Assembly (NCBI GenBank): GCA_950295325.1
Contig: OX485807.1
Location: forward strand, 29,173,666-29,237,665
Length of the DNA: 64,000 nt
Direction: 5' to 3'
Source: Polytrichum commune
Taxonomy: Eukaryota > Streptophyta > Polytrichopsida > Polytrichales > Polytrichaceae
The position numbers and the translations under genes were made by a program. Shown here in pieces: positions 3,157 through 63,925 of this stretch (its first letter is position 1; each line of letters begins with the position of its first letter). Under the pieces are notes generated by a model. That model saw only the letters and a list, made by a program, of their open reading frames with translations. It did not search any database and had not been told where the DNA came from.

Positions 3157-3388
3157 CACTACACTAAATATTAATTTATTGTCACTCACTATTTGGAGTT
3201 ACACACTGCTATATATATATTTTAATTGTCGATGAAATTGTTTACCAAGCAAAGTTGTTATTGTTCTAAAATGTCCAAAAAAACCCATTTGACATTTGTT
3301 GTTGAAATATGAGATGTATGATACATAGATATAGCATTGTGTAACTTGAAATAGGAAGTGACACTAAACACCGTAATTCAATGTAATT
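3157..3388. mobile_element. MITE-like element, family M1, copy 1
   Basis: The left end begins CACTACACTAAATATT and contains GTCACTCACTATTTGGAGTT. The right end, read in reverse, contains GTGTTTAGTGTCACTTCC and a diverged form of the same inner sequence. The same arrangement recurs inverted at 22759-22979, including an interior segment around ACCAAGCAAAGT, so two copies confirm one family of about 220-230 bp. There is no coding capacity. The CACTA start suggests a non-autonomous CACTA (En/Spm) relative, but the outermost right end is diverged and I could not define a target duplication. Confidence 0.6.
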
Positions 3389-3494: not shown

Positions 3495-4346
3495 CAATGG
3501 TTTACAAGTTGACTTACGTGTACACAAATAACACTTGTGCTTCAGTATGCTCAAAAACACATCTTCCTCTTGCATACTAAAATGTAAGTACACGACAGTT
3601 GCCATTAGTATGCTCAACATAATTCTCCCTTGCATACTAAAACGCAAAACTATAATATCAAGTAATCCAATGTGCTTTGCTAAATGTCAAAATGCAAATA
3701 TTTGTTTACCTAAAAAGGCTATTTATGTTGACAAAAAGTTTCATGTTGGCAATCAGGGACGTGACACTCTGAGACATGTGGGCATCTAGTTCAGGCCCTT
3801 TGCAAATAATGCATGCGACACTAAATACCGTACACATTATAGCGCAAGCTAATTTGTGGTCTTTGATGCCATTCTTGGAGTCGAATCAACTTAAAAGAGA
3901 GTTTTCCAAGCTATGAATAGCTCAACCTCATGAAGCTCTAGTCGCTTGATGAAGACTCTACGATTCCCTATAAAAGAACTTATCACCCAACTCGTTTGCC
4001 TGGTTTCATCATCTAACACACAAATTTAAGTTGACTGAAGTGTACACAAATGACACTTGGAATTAGTATGCTCAAGAATGTCTTCCTCTTGCATCCAAAA
4101 TGTCGATACATGACACTTGCCATTAGTATGCTCAATATTATCTTCCCTTTAGACATAAAAATACAAAACTATCATCTCAAGTATCCCAATATGCCACTCT
4201 AAATGTCACAATTTAAATCATTCTTTCACTCGATGAATAACACCATATCGGCAATTAGTGGACATGACACTTTGAGACCTCGAGGCATATAGTTCAGGCC
4301 CTTTGCAAATAGTGTGTGTGACACTAAATACCATAAACGGTGTAGT
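3495..4346 (+). repeat. Two direct copies of a ~320-bp unit
   Basis: The unit at about 3495-3835 recurs at about 4025-4346, spaced about 518 bp. Shared landmarks in order are: TTGACT followed by GTGTACACAAATRACACTT; TTAGTATGCTCAA; CTTGCAT; a long diverged middle; GTTCAGGCCCTTTGCAAATA; and GACACTAAATACC at the end. The second copy ends in ACGGTGTAGTG, the same right-end sequence as MITE family M1, so the unit may be a longer element that shares M1 termini. No protein is encoded. Confidence 0.65.
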
Positions 4347-5667
4347 GTTGGTGTGAATGAATGACGCTTCACATTGATCATAGTTGTGTGGTCACATTTG
4401 AACCCATAATGAGTATGTGGGACAAGTGCTATTCCCTTTTCTCGGTTACGATCCCTTTTGGTTCCCCTTGTGGTATACGTTAAAATGAAATTGTTCATTA
4501 CCAAGATTCATTCATGCAATAAGAATTGCAATTTCATCGATTCTTTGGTCATTCTTCATTTCTTCAACTTCATCGTACAAAACTAACTCGAGGTCTTTGT
4601 TGTTAATTATGGGGTCGAATCGACTTAAAAGACTCCAGTGAATTTAAAAAAAAAAAAAAAAGGGTCACAATTCATTCGTCCTAGTTCCCCTCTCATCCAA
4701 CCCTTGAAGAAAGTGGAGAAGGAATGCATGTGTGTTTAATTCATCCATTGAAGCTTCAACATTCCTCCGCAACTATGCACACCTAGAAGAAAAGGGAGAA
4801 TGAAAAACACATGGTCCTCAAGTCATCCGTTGAGACATCCACATAAGTTCATCCATAGATGTGCCACCTTCACCTTTTGGAAGGTGGAAAAATGGAAGGA
4901 AAGGAAGACATGGGCCCAAAACTTGGAAGAAAAGCAAACGATCATCCACATCCACTAAGATCAATATTCATCCACCCCTTGGAAGGGATTGGAGAAAGAA
5001 AGCATGCGACTACAATCCATCCATCCATCCATTCATCCAAGTCGCACACTCCTCCACAACTGTTGCACACTTGGTCAAAGAAAGAGCAAAATGGGTTGGA
5101 TACATGGCCCAAAAATGGACCACTTCAGTTGTAGGCATCTATTTGGGAGGTCAAGCCACCGTCTGGGTGGCGGTTATGTGCTAGCTAAATCTACACTACA
5201 ACCAAGGAAGGTCATTGCGCATGTTGTAGACCCCAATATAAAAACATAGCCTTCATTTTGCCCCAATGCAGTTCACACACTGGATGTGTTTTACTGCAAA
5301 TTTTCAATGATGCCTTCAAGTTTGTATTTTAAACTGTTGGGGCTTACATCCTCCAAAGGCCACTTGGGATGCGAAAGCTCATGCCATGTGCCCAACTTCA
5401 GAAGGAGAGCATGCAATCTGCAAACAACCCATCCCAGTATGCCCGATTCACCCATTCAATTCCGTCCATCCACGTGCCACCAAAAGGTGGAGGGATGGAA
5501 AGAAGAGAAGGAAACCACGTGACCACAATGCATCCATGTAGGGTCTACATTCATCCAACCCTCAACGAAGACGGGATGAAAAAATGTAGATTGAATCTAT
5601 CCATATAGGATTCATTGTAACATTAAGTTCCGTCTCGGGTACTATTCTAGTGTTGCCCGACCGGAAG

Positions 5668-6173
5668 AGGGCCACTTCACACATTGAGACTGAGAGCCCG
5701 TGACCATGGCACTTCAAGCACTCTCATTGGTGGAAAAGGCGGAGCCGGTCCGAGTTCACTTCACACTACGCTCGAGGGACCAACGGAGTATGTGAATGCA
5801 AGATGGATGTAAAGTCTACATGGATTCCTACATGGCATCGAATGGATCGTGTTTTCATGGTCACTTGGACTATTTCCAAAAAACCACCTCTTGGAGGTAG
5901 GCCTAACACAAAACTGGGAGACCATGGCATTCTGAACGTTCACGACCGTTGGTTTATTCTATGTTATCATGTGTGAGGACCCCGCATGAATAGACATTCA
6001 TTGAAATAGCATTTGGTTGAGGGCCCGGTCACATATGACTTCACACTACACTTGAGGATTTGTGACCACATTGCATGATTTTGGAGGTGTGTTGGGACGG
6101 CCTTTGGACACTTTCTTTTGGGCTCTCACAATTTCATGGTCACGGCTCTTGGCTCGTGTGTGAAGTGGCCCTA
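5668..6173. mobile_element. hAT-like MITE, family H1, copy 1 (506 bp)
   Basis: The element starts AGGGCCACTTCACACA and ends in the inverse (TGTGTGAAGTGGCCCTA). Subterminal sequence is also inverted (GAGAGCCCGTGACCATG on the left, CATGGTCACGGCTCTTG on the right). The whole sequence recurs in inverted orientation at 52658-53133. There is no transposase. AGGG-type ends recall hAT elements, but no convincing 8-bp target duplication is visible, so the superfamily is an inference. Confidence 0.75.
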
Positions 6174-7264
6174 AGTCAACCTCACACCATTGTGAATTAA
6201 GAACCATTGATACAAGCACGTAAAGTATCCATAAAGTAGAGTAGAGCCACCCATAACTGCTCACTTTAAAGATTATGTGACAGATATGAAGAAGTATGAG
6301 GCGGGGCAATTTGTTCTCGTGTTGGAAGATAGAAATGAGGAGGACTGCAAATTTGACGGTAATTTTATTCTTCGAATTGAAATTAATGTGAGTTTTTTAA
6401 TTCAAAAGTTTGTCCAAACGTATTACCAGTGTTTGGAGTCTGTCATAACTACTCAGTTTCATTGCTCGTTTCTCCTCACCTTAGCACTCAAAACCACGAC
6501 ATGTCTCATGACATTGTCGATTCCAACATGATCAAAATTGAGTCCCAACCTGATCGCAATTCCAATACCCTATATATTATCAATGGGATCTTGATCGGGA
6601 GTAGATGCCTCTACTATAGAGGTGACAAGCATGTGACTACACAAAGTCACCCGAATGAGATTTTTGCACTTTCATCCAAAACTATACCATGCGTGAAGGG
6701 AAGGGGAGAAGGTACACATGCGGTCCTCAAATCATCCATCCAACATTCCCATTCATCGGTCCCAATACATCCATCCATGTGCTACCTTCACCTGCTGGAG
6801 GGTGGAAGAAGGAAGGAAGGAAGAGAAGGAAACCATGTGAACATAATACATCCATCCATCCAGTATCCACATTCATCCAACCCTCGAAAGAAGAGGAGAA
6901 GGAAAGAACGTGCTTCAAATTTTCCACCAAAGTTGCACATTCCTGCAAAAAGTAGTCCACAACTGGAAGGAAGGCGAGGGGGAAAGTACGTGATACTCAA
7001 GTCATCCATCCAATAACCACAATCATCCATGCATTAAGCACAATCATCCATGCATTTACATCTATCCATGCGGCACCTTAGCCTTTTTAGAAGGTGCAGA
7101 AGAAGGAAGGGGAGAAGGAAATCAAGCTTTCGATCCTTGGGGCATCCATCTTATATCCATAATTTTCCATTTAATTACATCCAGTGGATGTAAGGAAGGA
7201 AAGGGAAACATAGGTAAGGATGTGAATACAACACATCCATCCATTCCAAGATGTCCAAAAGGCT

Positions 7265-7672
7265 GCACTAAATATGGTATTTAGTGTGATATGGTATTTT
7301 TTTGTCACTTGGGGGGGGGGGGGTAGCTTTTTTAATGACACTCCTTATGAATAGGTATGCATATACTATCATCCCAACTAGTTCATCCAAATGCCAATTA
7401 TTGAAATAAAGTTTGGTTTACCTTTCATCCGATCATCCTATCCTATTATATAATGATATATTGTCATAGGTGATTGAAATTTGGATGAAAATCACTCAGT
7501 AAGTGACAATTTTTGCAACATTGTAAGCTATAACACCTAGTTCTTTCGTTACAAAGAACGACAAAATGATTTTTAGGTTTAAAGTTATTGATAGTGACAC
7601 TACACGAGTGGTTTACAATTAGTATCGAGCAAGACAATAAAATTGGTGACAACTAAATACAACATTTGGTCC
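7265..7672 (+). repeat. Dispersed repeat family D, copy 1
   Basis: Matches 44712-45087 in the same orientation through ordered blocks: ATGACACTCCTTATGAATA; GAAATAAAGTTTGG; CACTYAGTAAGTGACAAT; GTGACACTACACGAGTGG with TTTACAATTAGT; GAGCAAGACAA; and GGTGACA followed by CTAAATACAA. It begins near GCACTAAATATGGTATTTAG and contains a G-homopolymer at 7311-7323. It is noncoding, and inverted termini are too weak to call the class. Confidence 0.6.
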
Positions 7673-30145: not shown

Positions 30146-30402
30146 GGGAGAGGGGGCATCATCACATATGAGTGTACCTCACATTTATCCATTGTAAAAG
30201 CCTTAATATAGTGTAAAGCCCGATATTTCTATTTTGTTTAGTTGAATGCACACCCAATTTAATTAAATTGATTGAACTGGCTTTAGAGATCTTGAATCAA
30301 TCTAGTGTCATTGAGATGAATTGGCCACGAACCTATTGAAAGTAAGGTTTTTGTTGTTGGATGGATGAAAGGGGCATTTGTATGTTGTAATTCCCTCTCT
30401 CC
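30146..30402. mobile_element. MITE, family G, copy 1 (257 bp)
   Basis: The left end GGGAGAGGGGGCATCATCAC continues ATATGAGTGTACCTC. The inverse of the right end is GGAGAGAGGGAATTACAACA then TACAAATGCC, then a CATCC run. The left end matches those at 44199, 48250 and 58298, showing a family with GAGAGG ends. Confidence 0.6.
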
Positions 30403-56149: not shown

Positions 56150-58297
56150 ACTTCTGTGGGAAGTCACAACACACAACAATCACTACATTGGCATATTGCT
56201 TTGCAAATGATAACCAAGCAGTGTGTTGTTTTTGATATGCATGTTTGAAGTTTTGGGTTCCTGTTGAGACAAGTGAGTGACAGGCGATCAAAGGCCACTG
56301 TGGAAAATTGAATTCTTGATCTCGTGGGTCCATTAACAGGGACATAACATTACTCAATAATAGGTGCTTGCATTGCGGGGTTAGGAACGGAAAAGGGCAT
56401 GATGCCCTTGTATGTTGAGGCCATGTTATGAAATAGCTTGAACATTGTTCATTTTGGCACATTGAATCAGTAGCTGGGTATTTTGAAGTTGGTGTTACTA
56501 AAAACATTTCAAGCTTTGTATTTGTAGATTATTGCACAAGAGGACACACTTATTGGGCCAATGAACAGGGAGAACTGACCGCTAGTTACAAATGAGCCGG
56601 TTGAGGTTGAGAAATAACCGGTTGAAGTTCAAGACTACAAAAAAATTATCGATCGTTTTTGAGGAATCTATAAAATACACCTCAAACTAATAAGAACATC
56701 CGAAAGATCACAACACGTAACCGGGTGGACTTGGGAACACTAGGCTTTTGACTGATTCTACCCCAAAATCTTCGGGGACATTGTGTTGTGCATGTCAACC
56801 ATAGCCAACAATGATGACTAGGAACGTGGGCTACAATGCACTCTCTAGGTGCCAACAATCCCCATTTAAAAAAGGGAGTTGAGACCCTAGGCTTAGTAAC
56901 TTTATGGGTGTGGATCTAGGGTGTCTTGGTTTTTGACATCTCTAGCTAGTGGGTTATAATGAACAAGAGTTGACATAAGGTAGATGAGCCGAAAAGCAAC
57001 ACCTCCAATAACTTCTTCTTTTTCAAAGCATGTTTAATAGCTCTAGATGAATATGAAAACAAAAACCTATAGAATCCACAAATTTATGAAGAGTCTATTA
57101 ATTAAAGGAGGTTAAAAAATGTGACCTATTGAAATTTGCAAAGTTTCCTAAAAAAGGTCTTCTGCAATGCACTAGGGTGGGGGGGGGAGGTCTATTATTG
57201 CTAGATTGTTAGGTGAGAATTGTTACTTCTTACGATGTCTTGTTGAACAAATATCATGAATTGACCATCGTGATTGGTCAAAATTAGTGATATTTTTAAA
57301 GCATTCGCATATCCTTTTTATATATTGCTTCTCATATAGACCATAATTGTGTTATTTTGTACTTGATGCCACATATGATTAGTTTATGTTTAACATTGGC
57401 TTACATAGTGATATTGTCACACTCACTTGTTGACGGTTTACATATGAAAAATACTAGGTGTTGCCAAAACGATGATGTTACTTTGAAGATCATCTACCTT
57501 ATGACCATAGGTTGGAGAGAAAGTCATTAACCCAATAGAATGATTGATTAGCCGAGCAAAGAGAAAACTCCAAAGCCGCCAATCAACCCACACCAACTAC
57601 CACAAGTGATGCTCTTTTATACTACCCATAACTTATGAAAGGCACATAATTTCATGCATATTTGGAAACAACAATTGTCACTATGAGCAAAGGATATCAA
57701 TCCAACCAAGAGCTCAAAGCAAAGCATGCACTTGAGGTTGATGCAAACTTGTTGCAAATTTGGGTTTACAGCAATGTTGTGACATCAAGTGTGGCATATT
57801 ATTTGGATGGAATGTTCATGTATATTAAGAATTATTTGCTCCTCTCATGAACTTGACATGAACATTCGAAAGTACTGCATCAATTATTATGGTTTGCGGT
57901 TCCTTTCTATACTAAATAGCCTCGTTACTGTAGCATTTTGAATACCTAGTGTGCCTCATTGTGTTTACTTACAATTTCAATGAACACATGGAGTTGTGTG
58001 AGCATGTGTGGTTTTGTAGAAAATAAGGGTTTCATACCCTATGACCCCACTTTTAAATGTTATATGACTAAAAATGACAAATTGTGAGCTCCACATAACA
58101 ATCAATGTATTCACCCTCTCCATGGTAGGTGCTATGAAAGAAGGGTGAAGATGCATACAAAGGTGCATATTGCCATGATTCCTATATTAGTTGAACTCGA
58201 CCTTTATTTGGGATCAATTTGACTCAATTTGAATGCATTAACAACATACTTGGGGGTTGTGTTTTTATTTGCCCCCCCTCCCAGCGCGAGTGCGTGC
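56150..58297. other. Gene-free stretch
   Basis: No gene recognised. GAGCCGGTTGAGGTT and ACCGGTTGAAGTT recur at 56592-56625. A G run lies at 57178-57187. 56715-56775 matches 63198-63275 (GTAACCGG, then GGACTTG and AACACTAGG). Confidence 0.45.
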
Positions 58298-58345
58298 AAG
58301 TGAAGAGAGGAACTTATCGCATATGAGTGTACCTCTCATTCATCC
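58298..58345. mobile_element. Single MITE family G end at the 3' end of the transposase-like gene
   Basis: GAAGAGAGGAACTTATCGCA then TATGAGTGTACCTCTCATTC is a good match to the left ends at 30146, 44199 and 48250. No partner end was found within 300 bp. It overlaps the last residues and the stop of the transposase-like frame. Confidence 0.55.
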
Positions 58346-61300
58346 AAAAGAGGTCTTGAGCATCTTGACTGGCTCTAGTTTCTACATTTGTAGGAGACTT
58401 CTGCTTATATTTTCTCTTAGTTTTAGGGCCGACCCTTTTCTGAGGTGACAATGGCGGAGCCAAGTCATCATTCCCATTTGTGGGAATTCTATCATCTCCA
58501 CTCCCAGACCCACCACTTTTGCCCTCACCACTGCGTGCTCCTTCATTGGGACCATCTACTAGGGCCTCTATCTTACTCCCACCTTCTTTGCCCTCTGCAC
58601 AAGAATTCTCCCCACCCTCCCCAATCCCAGGTGCTTTAAGAGTGGGCTCTCCAACAGGTGTCACTACATTGCCCCCTCCTAAACTCCCATCCTCCGTAAC
58701 TCCACCCTCCGGATTCCCATTTCTCACTGTTCCCCCCACCTTACTAGCACCTATCTTGCTATCACCCCTTGGACTCTCAACAACCCGCATTACACCCTTC
58801 CCTTTCAGCTGGGCCACATATGTGGCATCTTCAATCTTGTTCACCTTAAAGCGTTTCGGGCGGGAGGGGTCACCCGCACTACCTGCCACTGAATTCAACA
58901 TAGGATCTAAACTAGGCATACGAGAGTTAGTATTTTGAGCTGTGGGTGACTTAGGCTTAGATACAGACACTGGGTTACCTCTCTTCTCCATCATAATGGA
59001 GAACATTGACGAAAGGTTATTGGGCACTAGAGTATTTTGTTGTAAAGATTGTTGGTTGGTTTGGGAAGTGTGCAATACTTCAGACAATTGTTGCCTAAAT
59101 TCATTTTGTGTACTCTCTAATGCACAAATCCGTGCTGACATCCTTCCAGAAACACCTTGCTGTTCAAGCATAACCACAAACAAGCCATTAGTAGGGCATA
59201 CCAAAGATTGCATACACATGATTGCCAATTGACTACCCAAATGACTAAACTATATGTTTACCAAAATAGGGCATACCAATGACTGCATAAATAAGACTGC
59301 CAACCAGTAATATAACTTCCAAATGACTACCGAAAAGACTCCAAAATGACTGCATAAAGCAAAAATAACTTACAGATGTACATGCCCCGATATGCTCGGA
59401 CTCTGGAAAATCCTCTGCGATTTCAGTAATCCCTGGGCTCCTTTGCCTTTTTCTCCGCTGTCAAAGCAAGGGAGCTTAGTCAACTATTATATGCCTGATT
59501 ACAATAGAAATATATGCACCTACAAGCTATGAAATTGTTTGAATACGTACCAATCGAGCTTCTTTTCCAGCCTTTCCAGCCCTCCCAACATTCGATCGGT
59601 TCTTCACTTGTTTCCTTGCATTGGCCATCACCTGCGCCTTCTGCTTTGTCTCGGGTTTCGACCAATATTCACATAAGCGTGCCCATTGATCAGGTTCAAT
59701 GAAAATGGGGCATTTTTTTTTCCCCGACATGAACCAACCTTTCATTTTAGACCTCTCTGTTTTCATTTGTCTTTTCACAACATTTTTGAAGCCCAGATTT
59801 GATAGATTGTGTTCCAAGTACTCAAATTCATTGTCTATGGCGGCTCTCAGCTTCTCTATAGAGCTAGGATTCTGCATCTTCCACTTTAATATGCTCACAT
59901 CCAATATCCTAGGTACCAAGTTGCGGATCGTCTCATCAAAAGCATTTTTACCTTCACAACCTCCATCTATGCCACCACCGGCTTTCACTCTCAAGGTGTG
60001 AGGTTTTTGCGCTCCCGAACGCCTCAAATTGACATTTGTTTCTACCTCCTTCCTGGCAGCTCTCCTTGCTGCTCTTGCTTCACTCTTTGGCCTTACTTGC
60101 GGAGCGCCTTGAGTACCTTCTTCCGCAGTTGGTGGCGGAGGAATCCATTGGCCAGGGTACAATTGTCCCATCATCCACAACATGGGTTGTCCCATCATCC
60201 ACAACATAGGTTGTCCCATCATCCAAGGGCCTTGTTGGCCCATTAGTCCAGCAGGTGGTTGCATGGCAGGGGCCATTGCTCCAGGTGGTTGTTGAAGTTG
60301 CTGACCCATCACTCCAGGTTGCATCCACGGAGGAGGCATCCATTGCCATTGAGGTTGTGTGTAGGTTGTTGCGGGGTTATTTCCTTGGTGTGCAGCAACC
60401 TAACCCCCATCACACGACAACAAGTTAGTTCTAAAATTTTGGAATACAAAGCTTCATAAAGGTAAGTATTTAGAGATGTAGATGTGAATTTCTTTTATAC
60501 AACTTCACAGTTGATTAGAAGTGGGCCGGTGAGCACTTAGTGTGATCCTCTACACGTCTATGGACAATAGACTTCAATTCCAACATAACACCCATGTATC
60601 AGCCCACAGATAATATCCTTCTTCCATATCACCCACACAATCCCAACATTCCTATACAACCACTAAACTGCACCATTGGCACCAAGGGGATGAACCAGGA
60701 ATTAATTAATTGAAGTGTGAAAATAGGTACACACACTATACAAGTGGACTTCAATCCCAACATAACAACCATGTATCATCAGCCCACAAATAAGATATCT
60801 TCTTCCATATCACCCCCACGGCATCATCATATTTCATATATAACTCAATATTCAAGTAAAAACAATTCAAACTTACAATTTTTTTTGGTGTCTTCAATAT
60901 CTGCCTTGCTTGATTTCTTTTTGTTGCAGTGGATCCAGCCAAATCAACCATGGCTTCATGCACTGACTCAAGGTCCTCATCGCTATCTACAATAGGAAAC
61001 CATTAAGCAACAATAAGCTAGACCAAGAGTACAAGAAGGGTGAAACACAACACTGATTTAGGTTGAGAAATGATTATGCACACTACATCCACAAAAAAGG
61101 AGCGGATTCACTTGAATCACATACACACCAACGCATTACAATTTGATCTAAACCCTAAACCAACACCCTAAGCATCCCTACCACAAGGCTGCCCCTAAAT
61201 TTGATGATGTTTAAGTAAATTTGATGCGAAGGGATGCATATTACGTCTTCTTTAGTCAATTTATGTACAACACATTTTGAAACATAGAAAAACAATCATT

Positions 61301-62595
61301 TAGGAAGATGCTTATCCCTCAAATTGATTCTGAAATTTGAAATAACAATCTACAGAATTCACAATTGCAAACCAGATGGGACAATTCAAGACGATTCCCC
61401 ATCCAGTCGATTGTGGAGTTGGAAGTGCCCAAAGAACTTATCAGACATAACCCTTGTTGTACACTAATTTCATACAAGCACCTAACTCGCTCTGTAATCT
61501 GTAACCATTCTTTGAGTATGATAATTTAAGCTTGAAGGAAATGTGGACAACTTTATGCACGAGCTCTCAAATTCATACGAGGCCAAACTCACGGGTAGTT
61601 TGATGCCAAGATTTTACACAAGTCTTTTATACCCAGTGCAAGGACCAGCAAGTTCATAAATGCATACATCCACACAAAAAAACCCTGACTTAGCCTCAAC
61701 TCACATTGGACAACCCTATCAAAAAATACTTAAACACCCAAAATCCTACACCACCTACATCTTACACAAACCCCAACACCCTAAGCATTTCTATCACAAG
61801 GTTGCCCCTAAACACAACACACAAAAGCAAGGACCAACAAGTTCATAAATGCATACATCCACACAAAAAAAACCCCTGACTTAGCCTCAACTCACATTGG
61901 ACAACCCTATCACACATACCTAAACACCCAAAACCCTACACCACCTACATCTTACACAAACCCCAACACCCTAAGCATTTCTATCACAAGGCTACCCCTA
62001 AACACAACACGCAAAAAAAGGACCAGCAAATGCATACATGCACACATGCACACAAACTAAACCATGATTTGCGTCAACTCACATTGGACAACCCTATCAC
62101 TCCAACCTAAACACCCAACACCCTACACCACTTACAACTTACACAAACACCAACACCCTAAGCATTTCCATCACAAGGCTGCCCCTAAACACAACACACA
62201 AAAAAAAGGACCAGCAAATGCATACATGCATACATGCACACAAACTAAACCTTGACATACCCTCAACTCACATTCATAAACCCTATCACAAAAACCTAAA
62301 CACCCAACACACAACTTTGCATACAAACCCACCCCAAACCTGATATTGTGCAACAAAACATAACAACTTTGGAGGTAAACAGAAGGTTTAGGGACTTACC
62401 TGGTATGTAGTCGTCCTCAGTCTTGGTCTCGTCTGACTCCTCCTCTGTTGCCATGTCGATGACGGCAATCATTGGAGAGCTCCCAAGAACACACCTCCGT
62501 GCGCTCCGGCGACTTGGAATGGCGGGATTAGGGGCGGAGGCAAGGCGTTGTCGAGGGAGGGCCCTGACACTACAAAACTTGCGCCTGGCAACCAT
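58314..62595 (-). CDS. Ptta/En/Spm-type transposase-like gene, intact, 5 exons
   Basis: Exons in transcript order are 62595-62400 (ATG could instead be 62472), 60986-60877, 60399-59551, 59457-59374 and 59159-58314. Every intron is GT-AG and every join keeps frame, giving 694 (or 653) residues. The N-terminus is acidic (MATEEESDETKTEDDY; DSDEDLESVHEAM). Then comes a Pro/Gln/Met-rich part with WMMGQPML repeats (about 160-182). The plant transposase (Ptta/En/Spm, Transposase_24) region follows at about 255-385, with MKGWFM, IEPDQWARLCEYWS, a KxKAQxMANARKQ helix and GRAGKAG. Next is a basic RRKRQR exon, then a low-complexity Gly/Ser-rich tail with KRFKVNK and KTKRKYKQK. Family members accompany CACTA elements and are thought to bind element DNA; no DDE transposase partner is visible here. 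It could be a recently inserted element gene or a domesticated one. Introns 1 and 2 carry tandem repeats. Confidence 0.78.
60565..60830. repeat. Two direct ~90-bp copies in transposase-like intron 2
   Basis: 60565-60650 and 60740-60830 share GACTTCAATYCCAACATAAC, CCATGTATCA, CAGCCCACARATAA and CTTCTTCCATATCACCC. Spacing is about 172 bp. Confidence 0.7.
61640..62335. repeat. Tandem array, ~3.7 units of ~186 bp, transposase-like intron 1
   Basis: GCATACATCC or GCATACATGC recurs at 61662, 61851, 62032 and 62220. Each is followed by CAACTCACATTGGACAACCC or its variant, AAACACCCAA, CCTACACCAC, CTTACACAAA, CACCCTAAGCATTT, CACAAGGCTGCCCCTAAACA and AGGACCAGCAA. A detached partial unit sits at about 61149-61199. 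Minus-strand (sense) reading is GT-rich. The array makes up about half of the 1.4-kb intron. Confidence 0.85.
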
Positions 62596-63285
62596 GTGTC
62601 GCGCCTGGCAACCATGCACGGCGTCTTTCCAAGGTATGAGATTTGAACCCTCTACAAAACTTACCTATCTAAACCCTCACACACAAGGGTCTTCCACTGC
62701 CGCACTTGTGGAGACCAAATTATGATAGGGTTAGAAGGGAAGTGGGTTTAGGGTGCTCCCGAGGGTGAAGGAGAGAGACGAAATCTCCACCGTCCACGTA
62801 TGATCTCTATGTATGTCACTTGCCAACATGGCAAGCCACGTCATCATACACAAGTATGTTAGTTAGCAACCAGCACACGTGGCCAAAATAAACGACTAAG
62901 CTATGTCTTTGTTGCCACGTGTCAGTCCACGTGCACAAACAATGACTGACTTATAGTCGTATGCAGGTATAGGTTTTTATGACTAAATTGCAACTATGAC
63001 CTTATCTAAGGTGATGCAAAAAATGAGAAGCTCTCAATAAATGCCGGAACAATGTTCGCCCTGAACGCGCGGTTGATTACAAACATACCACTTTGCCTGA
63101 GCTTTAGAGAGTTCAACAGAGAAGACTATAGAAGGGTATCAAATGCAGTTAGAGAAATATGCTATATTCTATACATATTTCTAACCGGAGGGTGTCGTCA
63201 ACATGTAACCGGTTGGAGTTGCAAACACTAGGATCTCAACCGACTAGTATGCTCAAAAATCTCCCCGATCACAGTTGATAACTTG
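62596..63285. other. Upstream region of the transposase-like gene
   Basis: Likely promoter. A reverse telo-box-like word (GGGTTTAGGG) lies near 62744-62753. CCACGT-type words (possible G-box cores) cluster at 62790-62935. No second gene seen. Contains a short match to 56715-56775 at about 63198-63275. Confidence 0.45.
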
Positions 63286-63925
63286 ACTCAACTCCATGCA
63301 CATAAAGTTGCAGTACTGTGGTTTTCACAGCAGCCTGCGATTGTTGTAACTTTTTAGCGAATTGTAACGTACATAGTCTAAGTTCCTAAGTGATCCGACC
63401 GAGGGCTCAAAGTAAGCATGCAGTACTTGCGGCTGAAGCAATCTTGTTCTGGAAGTTGGGGTTTGCGACACTGTCTTGACATCAGATATGGCGGAATTGT
63501 TTGAACAGTTCCTAGCTAGACTCACGAATTTGACGGTATGAACAACGATAAACACGTCTACTAGAAGTATGGAGAATTTAACATTGTGGTTGAGATGAAC
63601 TTCAGTAAAAGAACTCCATGCACGTAAAGCTGAGTGGGTTCACAACAGCTGCCTGCGATTGATGTAACTTTTGAGCGAATCGTAACCTATACAGTTAGTC
63701 TAAGTTCTGAGTGATCCAACTGAGGGCGCAAAGTGAGCATGCAACACTTGCAGTTGAAGCGATCTTGTTCTGGAAGTTGGGGCTATGGCACTGTCGTGAC
63801 ATCAAACATGGCAGAATTGTTTGAACAGTTCCTAAACTCGCGAATTTGACGGTGTATATGAACAACGAGAAACACATCTATAAGTATGGCAAAATTTAAC
63901 ACTGTGATTGAAAGGAACTTCAGTG
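63286..63925 (+). repeat. Two tandem ~320-bp units
   Basis: Units at about 63292-63611 and 63612-63925 share, in order: CTCCATGCAC; CAGCCTGCGATTG or its variant; TGTAACTTTT; AGTCTAAGTTC; GAGTGATCC or its variant; CAATCTTGTTCTGGAAGTTG or its variant; GGAATTGTTTGAACAGTTCC or its variant; CGAATTTGACGGT; and GAACTTCAGT. Short minus-strand frames (60-76 codons) arise from both copies but are not conserved between them. Confidence 0.8.

Follow-up and report, generated by a model that had tools for sequence, protein, structure and literature searches.

The five-exon gene on the minus strand of the window (the whole 64-kb stretch of DNA analysed, C5:29173666-29237665, in a genome of 408 Mb and seven chromosome-sized contigs) is best explained as a relic of ORF2, the gene for a TnpA-like protein of a CACTA DNA transposon family, truncated at both ends; we put the probability of this reading at roughly 0.93. 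Membership in the ORF2 family is strongly indicated by sequence homology to the ORF2 of complete elements, and the window copy retains exons 1 to 5 as far as position 58357 together with the region upstream of ORF2. The preliminary description had proposed either a young element or an exapted host gene, neither of which is supported for a fragment that is cut on both sides, has no TNPD gene, inverted termini (TIRs) or NIF domain, and is one of many copies.

Gene model and break points in the window

Joining exons 1 to 5 gives a frame of 694 amino acids without internal stop, in which the introns are of the GT-AG type and one codon is split across exons 1 and 2, confirming the four phase-keeping introns that had been described at these coordinates. 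All 8 splice sites of the model recur at aligned positions in relatives, and with the exon joins backed in this way by comparison, the alignments indicate that the five-exon structure is real. The layout of acidic head, Met/Pro/Gln repeats, basic region and Gly/Ser tail was likewise found as described. The features of the region are as follows.

63166..63167, no strand: 5'-side break point; the sister fragments on C1 and C3 match up to 63166
62596..63166, minus strand: conserved region upstream of ORF2, from alignment to relatives L081 and L082
62400..62595, minus strand: exon 1, acidic head; donor conserved in L011 and L082
61640..62307, no strand: 187-bp minisatellite, 3.5 copies, within intron 1
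60877..60986, minus strand: exon 2; acceptor and donor conserved in L010-L013
59551..60399, minus strand: exon 3; the conserved Transposase_24-like core, preceded by Met/Pro/Gln repeats (60163-60225)
59374..59457, minus strand: exon 4, basic; splice sites conserved
59159-58314, minus strand: exon 5 as modelled; native part 58357..59159, Gly/Ser-rich
58356..58357, no strand: 3' break point, where every relative stops matching the window
58314..58356, minus strand: foreign tail, supplying the stop and the 14 codons before it; unrelated DNA outside the element

The ATG at 62595 is conserved in one full relative (L011/L081) but not in another (L082), and the start codon of the window gene is uncertain, an ATG at 62454, within exon 1, being an alternative. 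The only Pfam match of the window protein is Transposase_24 (PF03004; E=5e-4), whose 20.6 bits lie below the gathering score of 28.7 bits. An AlphaFold model of the ORF2 core, made from a single sequence, was all-helical and of low confidence (pLDDT 54). In L010 and L012, intron 1 also holds repeats related to the 187-bp minisatellite.

Homology between the window and its relatives spans 63166 to 58357, and the sequences diverge at both ends; past 58357 the relatives keep aligning with one another and none with the window. The earlier view of a reading-frame-intact gene therefore holds for the frame and the splice sites and fails for completeness, since the relatives' homology ends at 58357. 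In the relatives, exon 5 extends into a NIF/FCP1-like HAD domain: beyond the break the frame runs for about 330 more codons, through this domain and a tail, to a stop, after which come a second conserved reading frame and then the CACTA terminus. This second frame, following the NIF-containing exon, looks like a last exon; it gave no Pfam match and is not claimed as PF03017. Neither the NIF domain nor the relatives' continuation past 58357 was found anywhere in the 64-kb window. Element ends are missing from the window copy, which hence has no flanking 3-bp target duplication (TSD), and the terminal regions with their subterminal motif repeats are absent as well.

These losses bear on the proposal that this is a young CACTA element, intact and active, with its TNPD gene and ends just beyond the interval of the gene. 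An unbroken frame and a weak Transposase_24 match would be in keeping with it, but (i) TNPD (PF02992) gave no match in the window or in the next 9.9 kb rightward, so that none lies within about 10.7 kb, (ii) the NIF domain is missing from the entire window, (iii) the family TIR, CACTAGAAGAAT, has matches in the window at chance level only, and (iv) the nearest full copies are only about 80% identical to the window copy. Unless the assembly is in error, the missing parts already refute such an element, which is scarcely credible here.

In the foreign tail, at 58316-58345, lies the motif ATCGCATATGAGTGTACCTCTCATTCATCC, which recurs at 30161-30190; 27 bp of it have 482 genome copies with at most 2 mismatches, against 0 for the reversed control. 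The dispersed motif is 27-34 bp long. Among the copies compared, the sequence on either side of it has diverged strongly, and the motif may be a box conserved from an old SINE-like repeat. Other repeats surround the fragment. At 63183-63272, next to the 5' break, lies a repeat of about 90 bp that is dispersed over dozens of places at 85-95% identity; it often occurs as two inverted copies separated by a few hundred bases and looks like the ends of a short inverted-repeat element. At 63290-63924 a unit of about 320 bp is duplicated in tandem, the two units having diverged to 81% identity, and a weaker relative lies at 57700-57805; the direct repeats 57700-57805 and 63714-63823 were considered as marks of a host element around the fragment, an idea too weak to claim. 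The stretch 57225-57500 is a diffuse old repeat with 70-76% identity to dozens of genome places.

Complete relatives and the CACTA family

TNPD and other families mark the source genome as plant-like and rich in CACTA elements, and a link of the window gene to the Ptta/En/Spm (CACTA) group, suggested before from the letters alone, was borne out by two lines of evidence: (i) genome-wide, wherever the exon 3 core has a TNPD no more than 14 kb away, TNPD is upstream and on the opposite strand (32/32 pairs, with about 1.3 pairs expected at random in any arrangement), which identifies the window gene type as ORF2 of a CACTA family with two divergent genes, and (ii) two relatives sit inside complete CACTA elements. 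These are C5:10443362-10456438 (13.1 kb, TSD TCT/TCT) and C6:34027536-34040364 (12.8 kb, TSD TGA/TGA), both with inverted ends CACTAGAAGAAT...ATTCTTCTAGTG, a divergent TNPD and, at each end, clustered ATGACT and CCACGT motifs. Since each has its own 3-bp target duplication and the compared terminal stretches are 97-98% identical, we regard them as separate and fairly recent insertions.

The intact relatives thus measure about 13 kb and carry CACTAGAAGAAT inverted termini, 3-bp TSDs, TNPD and a divergent ORF2, the latter ordered as Transposase_24-like core, NIF/FCP1-like HAD domain and conserved C-terminal exon-like frame. In En/Spm, cutting is the task of TNPD, and the TnpA-like proteins have a regulatory role and bind motifs that are repeated close to the element ends (PMC2613891). 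By analogy with En/Spm, TNPD of intact elements would cut the TIRs, and the ORF2 protein would bind the motif clusters near the ends, assembling and regulating the complex, and would also bind upstream of its own gene. The region 62596..63166 is the probable ORF2 promoter; it matches the C1 and C3 sister fragments, which end at 63166, at 95-96%, and holds 5 copies of CCACGT against 0.19 expected, for a motif that was chosen from the element ends. The ORF2 protein may bind its own promoter, given that CCACGT is enriched both in the element ends and in the ORF2 upstream region. The window copy cannot move on its own and would at most be a source of a shortened DNA-binding protein.

CACTA ORF2 proteins with Transposase_24 are known, are of uncertain function and are open to added domains (PMC8978399, PMC4158355, PMC8195511, PMC2613891). 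CACTA elements of this kind include Tgmt* of soybean (PMC2613891), the tnpA/tnpD pairs of lettuce (PMC8195511) and Jozin of Chenopodium (PMC8978399), which share with the present family the CACTA TIRs, 3-bp TSDs, a Transposase_21 TNPD, a second protein region with Transposase_24 and motif clusters near the ends. The present family differs from these elements in that ORF2 is divergent to TNPD and carries a NIF/HAD domain, the window copy being a part of this ORF2; in Tgmt*, by contrast, both domains lie within one large predicted gene (PMC2613891), and Jozin has gained a Peptidase_C48 domain where the present family has NIF/HAD (PMC8978399).

The window contains several CACTA/TAGTG pairs, more than its shuffles do. 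One of them, 4322-7286, spans 2,965 bp with a perfect 13-bp TIR, CACTAAATACCAT, and a TGA duplication, and is a candidate CACTA-type element with a TIR unlike that of the ORF2 family; ends related to it are found at 3362, 3819 and 22954. The suggestion that CACTA-ended MITEs elsewhere in the window serve as substrates of the family was not substantiated, as their termini, for example CACTAAATACCAT, differ from CACTAGAAGAAT.

Age and selection on the window copy

The window gene belongs to a multi-copy family: an exon 3 search of the genome listed 137 matches, among which the nearest are 82-84% identical. The closest relatives of the window copy, at C1:74067632-74070370, C3:26108630-26109606 and C7:39909878-39910417, are partial copies, which are unmatched by the exon 3 search and are 90-96% identical over the shared introns, exons 1-2 and upstream DNA.

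Branch analysis, by pairwise and three-taxon distances, gave a terminal branch for the window copy of 0.033 substitutions per site on the exon 3 tree. On this branch dN/dS in exon 3, with the closest outgroups, is about 0.36, against family pairwise values of 0.27-0.30; some purifying selection appears on it, at a level similar to that of the transposing family and not beyond it. In exon 5, with the nearest outgroups, dS is about 0.02 and dN about 0.04, a dN/dS that is not below 1 and that comes from few changes. No stop has arisen on the window branch, where about 2.9 would be expected under full neutrality over 2042 coding bases. The branch is short and few stops are expected if the truncation is recent, so the intact frame does not require a host function. 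On these sequence comparisons the window copy would appear to be under no host-level constraint beyond that of its transposing relatives, and what was found is not a single-copy gene under purifying selection, copies being many and no constraint being seen on the exon 5 branch.

The other proposal, that the host has preserved the truncated ORF2 and the DNA upstream of it for a DNA-binding protein that regulates related elements, would account for a frame and splice sites that are all unbroken and for a promoter region that is still there when TNPD and the TIRs are gone. We consider it decidedly improbable, since (i) the terminal branch is short and without clear constraint, (ii) the C-terminal half and the native stop have been replaced by unrelated repeat sequence, and (iii) the C1, C3 and C7 sisters of the same sublineage are likewise broken pieces. 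The reading as a truncated relic gives the window gene an ordinary character, that of a clipped transposon gene that can be mistaken for a complete host gene; an annotator would call it complete because an unrelated repeat supplies the stop codon.

The NIF/FCP1-like domain of the family

The NIF (PF03031) match in the relatives is full-length, covering profile positions 1-160 with 44.8 bits against a cut-off of 21.8 bits. A protein search of the genome with this domain gave 91 matches at about 57 places, at 44 of which the core lies upstream on the same strand. Both of two subfamilies carry the domain, and as synonymous sites between them are saturated or nearly so, its capture must be old; dN/dS between copies of 0.12-0.44 indicates that it has been maintained.

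The catalytic motifs of the domain are degenerate. Motif I reads [ND]xHGT (once NxHDT), not DxDx(T/V), in 16/16 aligned copies, with His at the second catalytic position in all of them and the nucleophile Asp kept in two; in L086 it reads DLDET. The Ser/Thr position of motif II is Gly in nearly all copies, the Lys of motif III is kept, and motif IV is DH, not DD, with the first Asp kept. With the catalytic aspartates lacking, catalysis is unlikely, and we infer from these sequences that the NIF domain of intact ORF2 would be a binding module and not a phosphatase. That it instead still works as a phosphatase, with TNPD or the tail of RNA polymerase II as an example of a substrate, would agree with the full-length match, with the constraint across copies and with the retained motif III Lys and first Asp of motif IV, but is improbable in view of the [ND]xHGT, Gly and DH that stand in motifs I, II and IV.

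The sole non-CACTA relatives returned by the NIF protein search were FCP1-like sequences at C2:43151039 and C2:4740113 that have a DVNG motif and are taken as host genes. These plant FCP1-like HAD sequences have the same domain as the transposon NIF and are 27-31% identical to it; they keep the motif I nucleophile and DDSP/DDTP, whereas the transposon domain has [ND]xH and DH.

A second, unrelated repeat with a NIF/HAD domain (DLNGV...DDSP) was seen in L083/L092 (C5:44634900-44651000). It has at least 23 copies that are 99-100% identical over at least 5,989 bp, and genome-wide the NIF matches of near-equal score number about 140. Its open stretches of 505-511 aa have no Pfam match over the cut-off. 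Upstream it has a long frame on the minus strand; its CGAACGMGCGTTCG units are palindromic, and it has an end reading ...ATATAGTG. This repeat is very young and unclassified.

For the binding module proposed above, one may tentatively imagine that a CACTA lineage captured a plant FCP1-like domain in its TnpA-like protein, that the domain lost catalysis and was kept under selection as a phospho-reader aiding transposition or escape from silencing, and that NIF-less copies are dead or shortened competitors; taken as a whole, we hold this account to be possible though rather unlikely. In this speculative account the phospho-reader could recognise, for example, a silencing factor or the tail of RNA polymerase II.

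Captured Ulp1/Peptidase_C48 domains are found in transposon genes of the KAONASHI/Vandal MULEs and of CACTA Jozin (PMC13317346, PMC8978399). As in those systems, a host enzyme domain has been fused into a transposon accessory gene of the present family and kept by selection; unlike them, the domain is a HAD phosphatase of the FCP1/NIF type without its catalytic aspartates. No report of an FCP1/NIF domain in CACTA elements was found in the open-access papers searched, and a captured, apparently inactivated phosphatase domain in such elements seems to be new.

To conclude, the novelty lies in the pseudo-phosphatase domain of the family, which the window copy has lost and which some 44 ORF2 copies carry in a degenerate and constrained form. 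The host domains so far seen built into accessory proteins of plant transposons are mainly Ulp1-type proteases, and the family would add a pseudo-phosphatase to the few host domains that are kept under selection in accessory proteins of plant DNA transposons, thereby offering a testable way into the function of CACTA ORF2 proteins.
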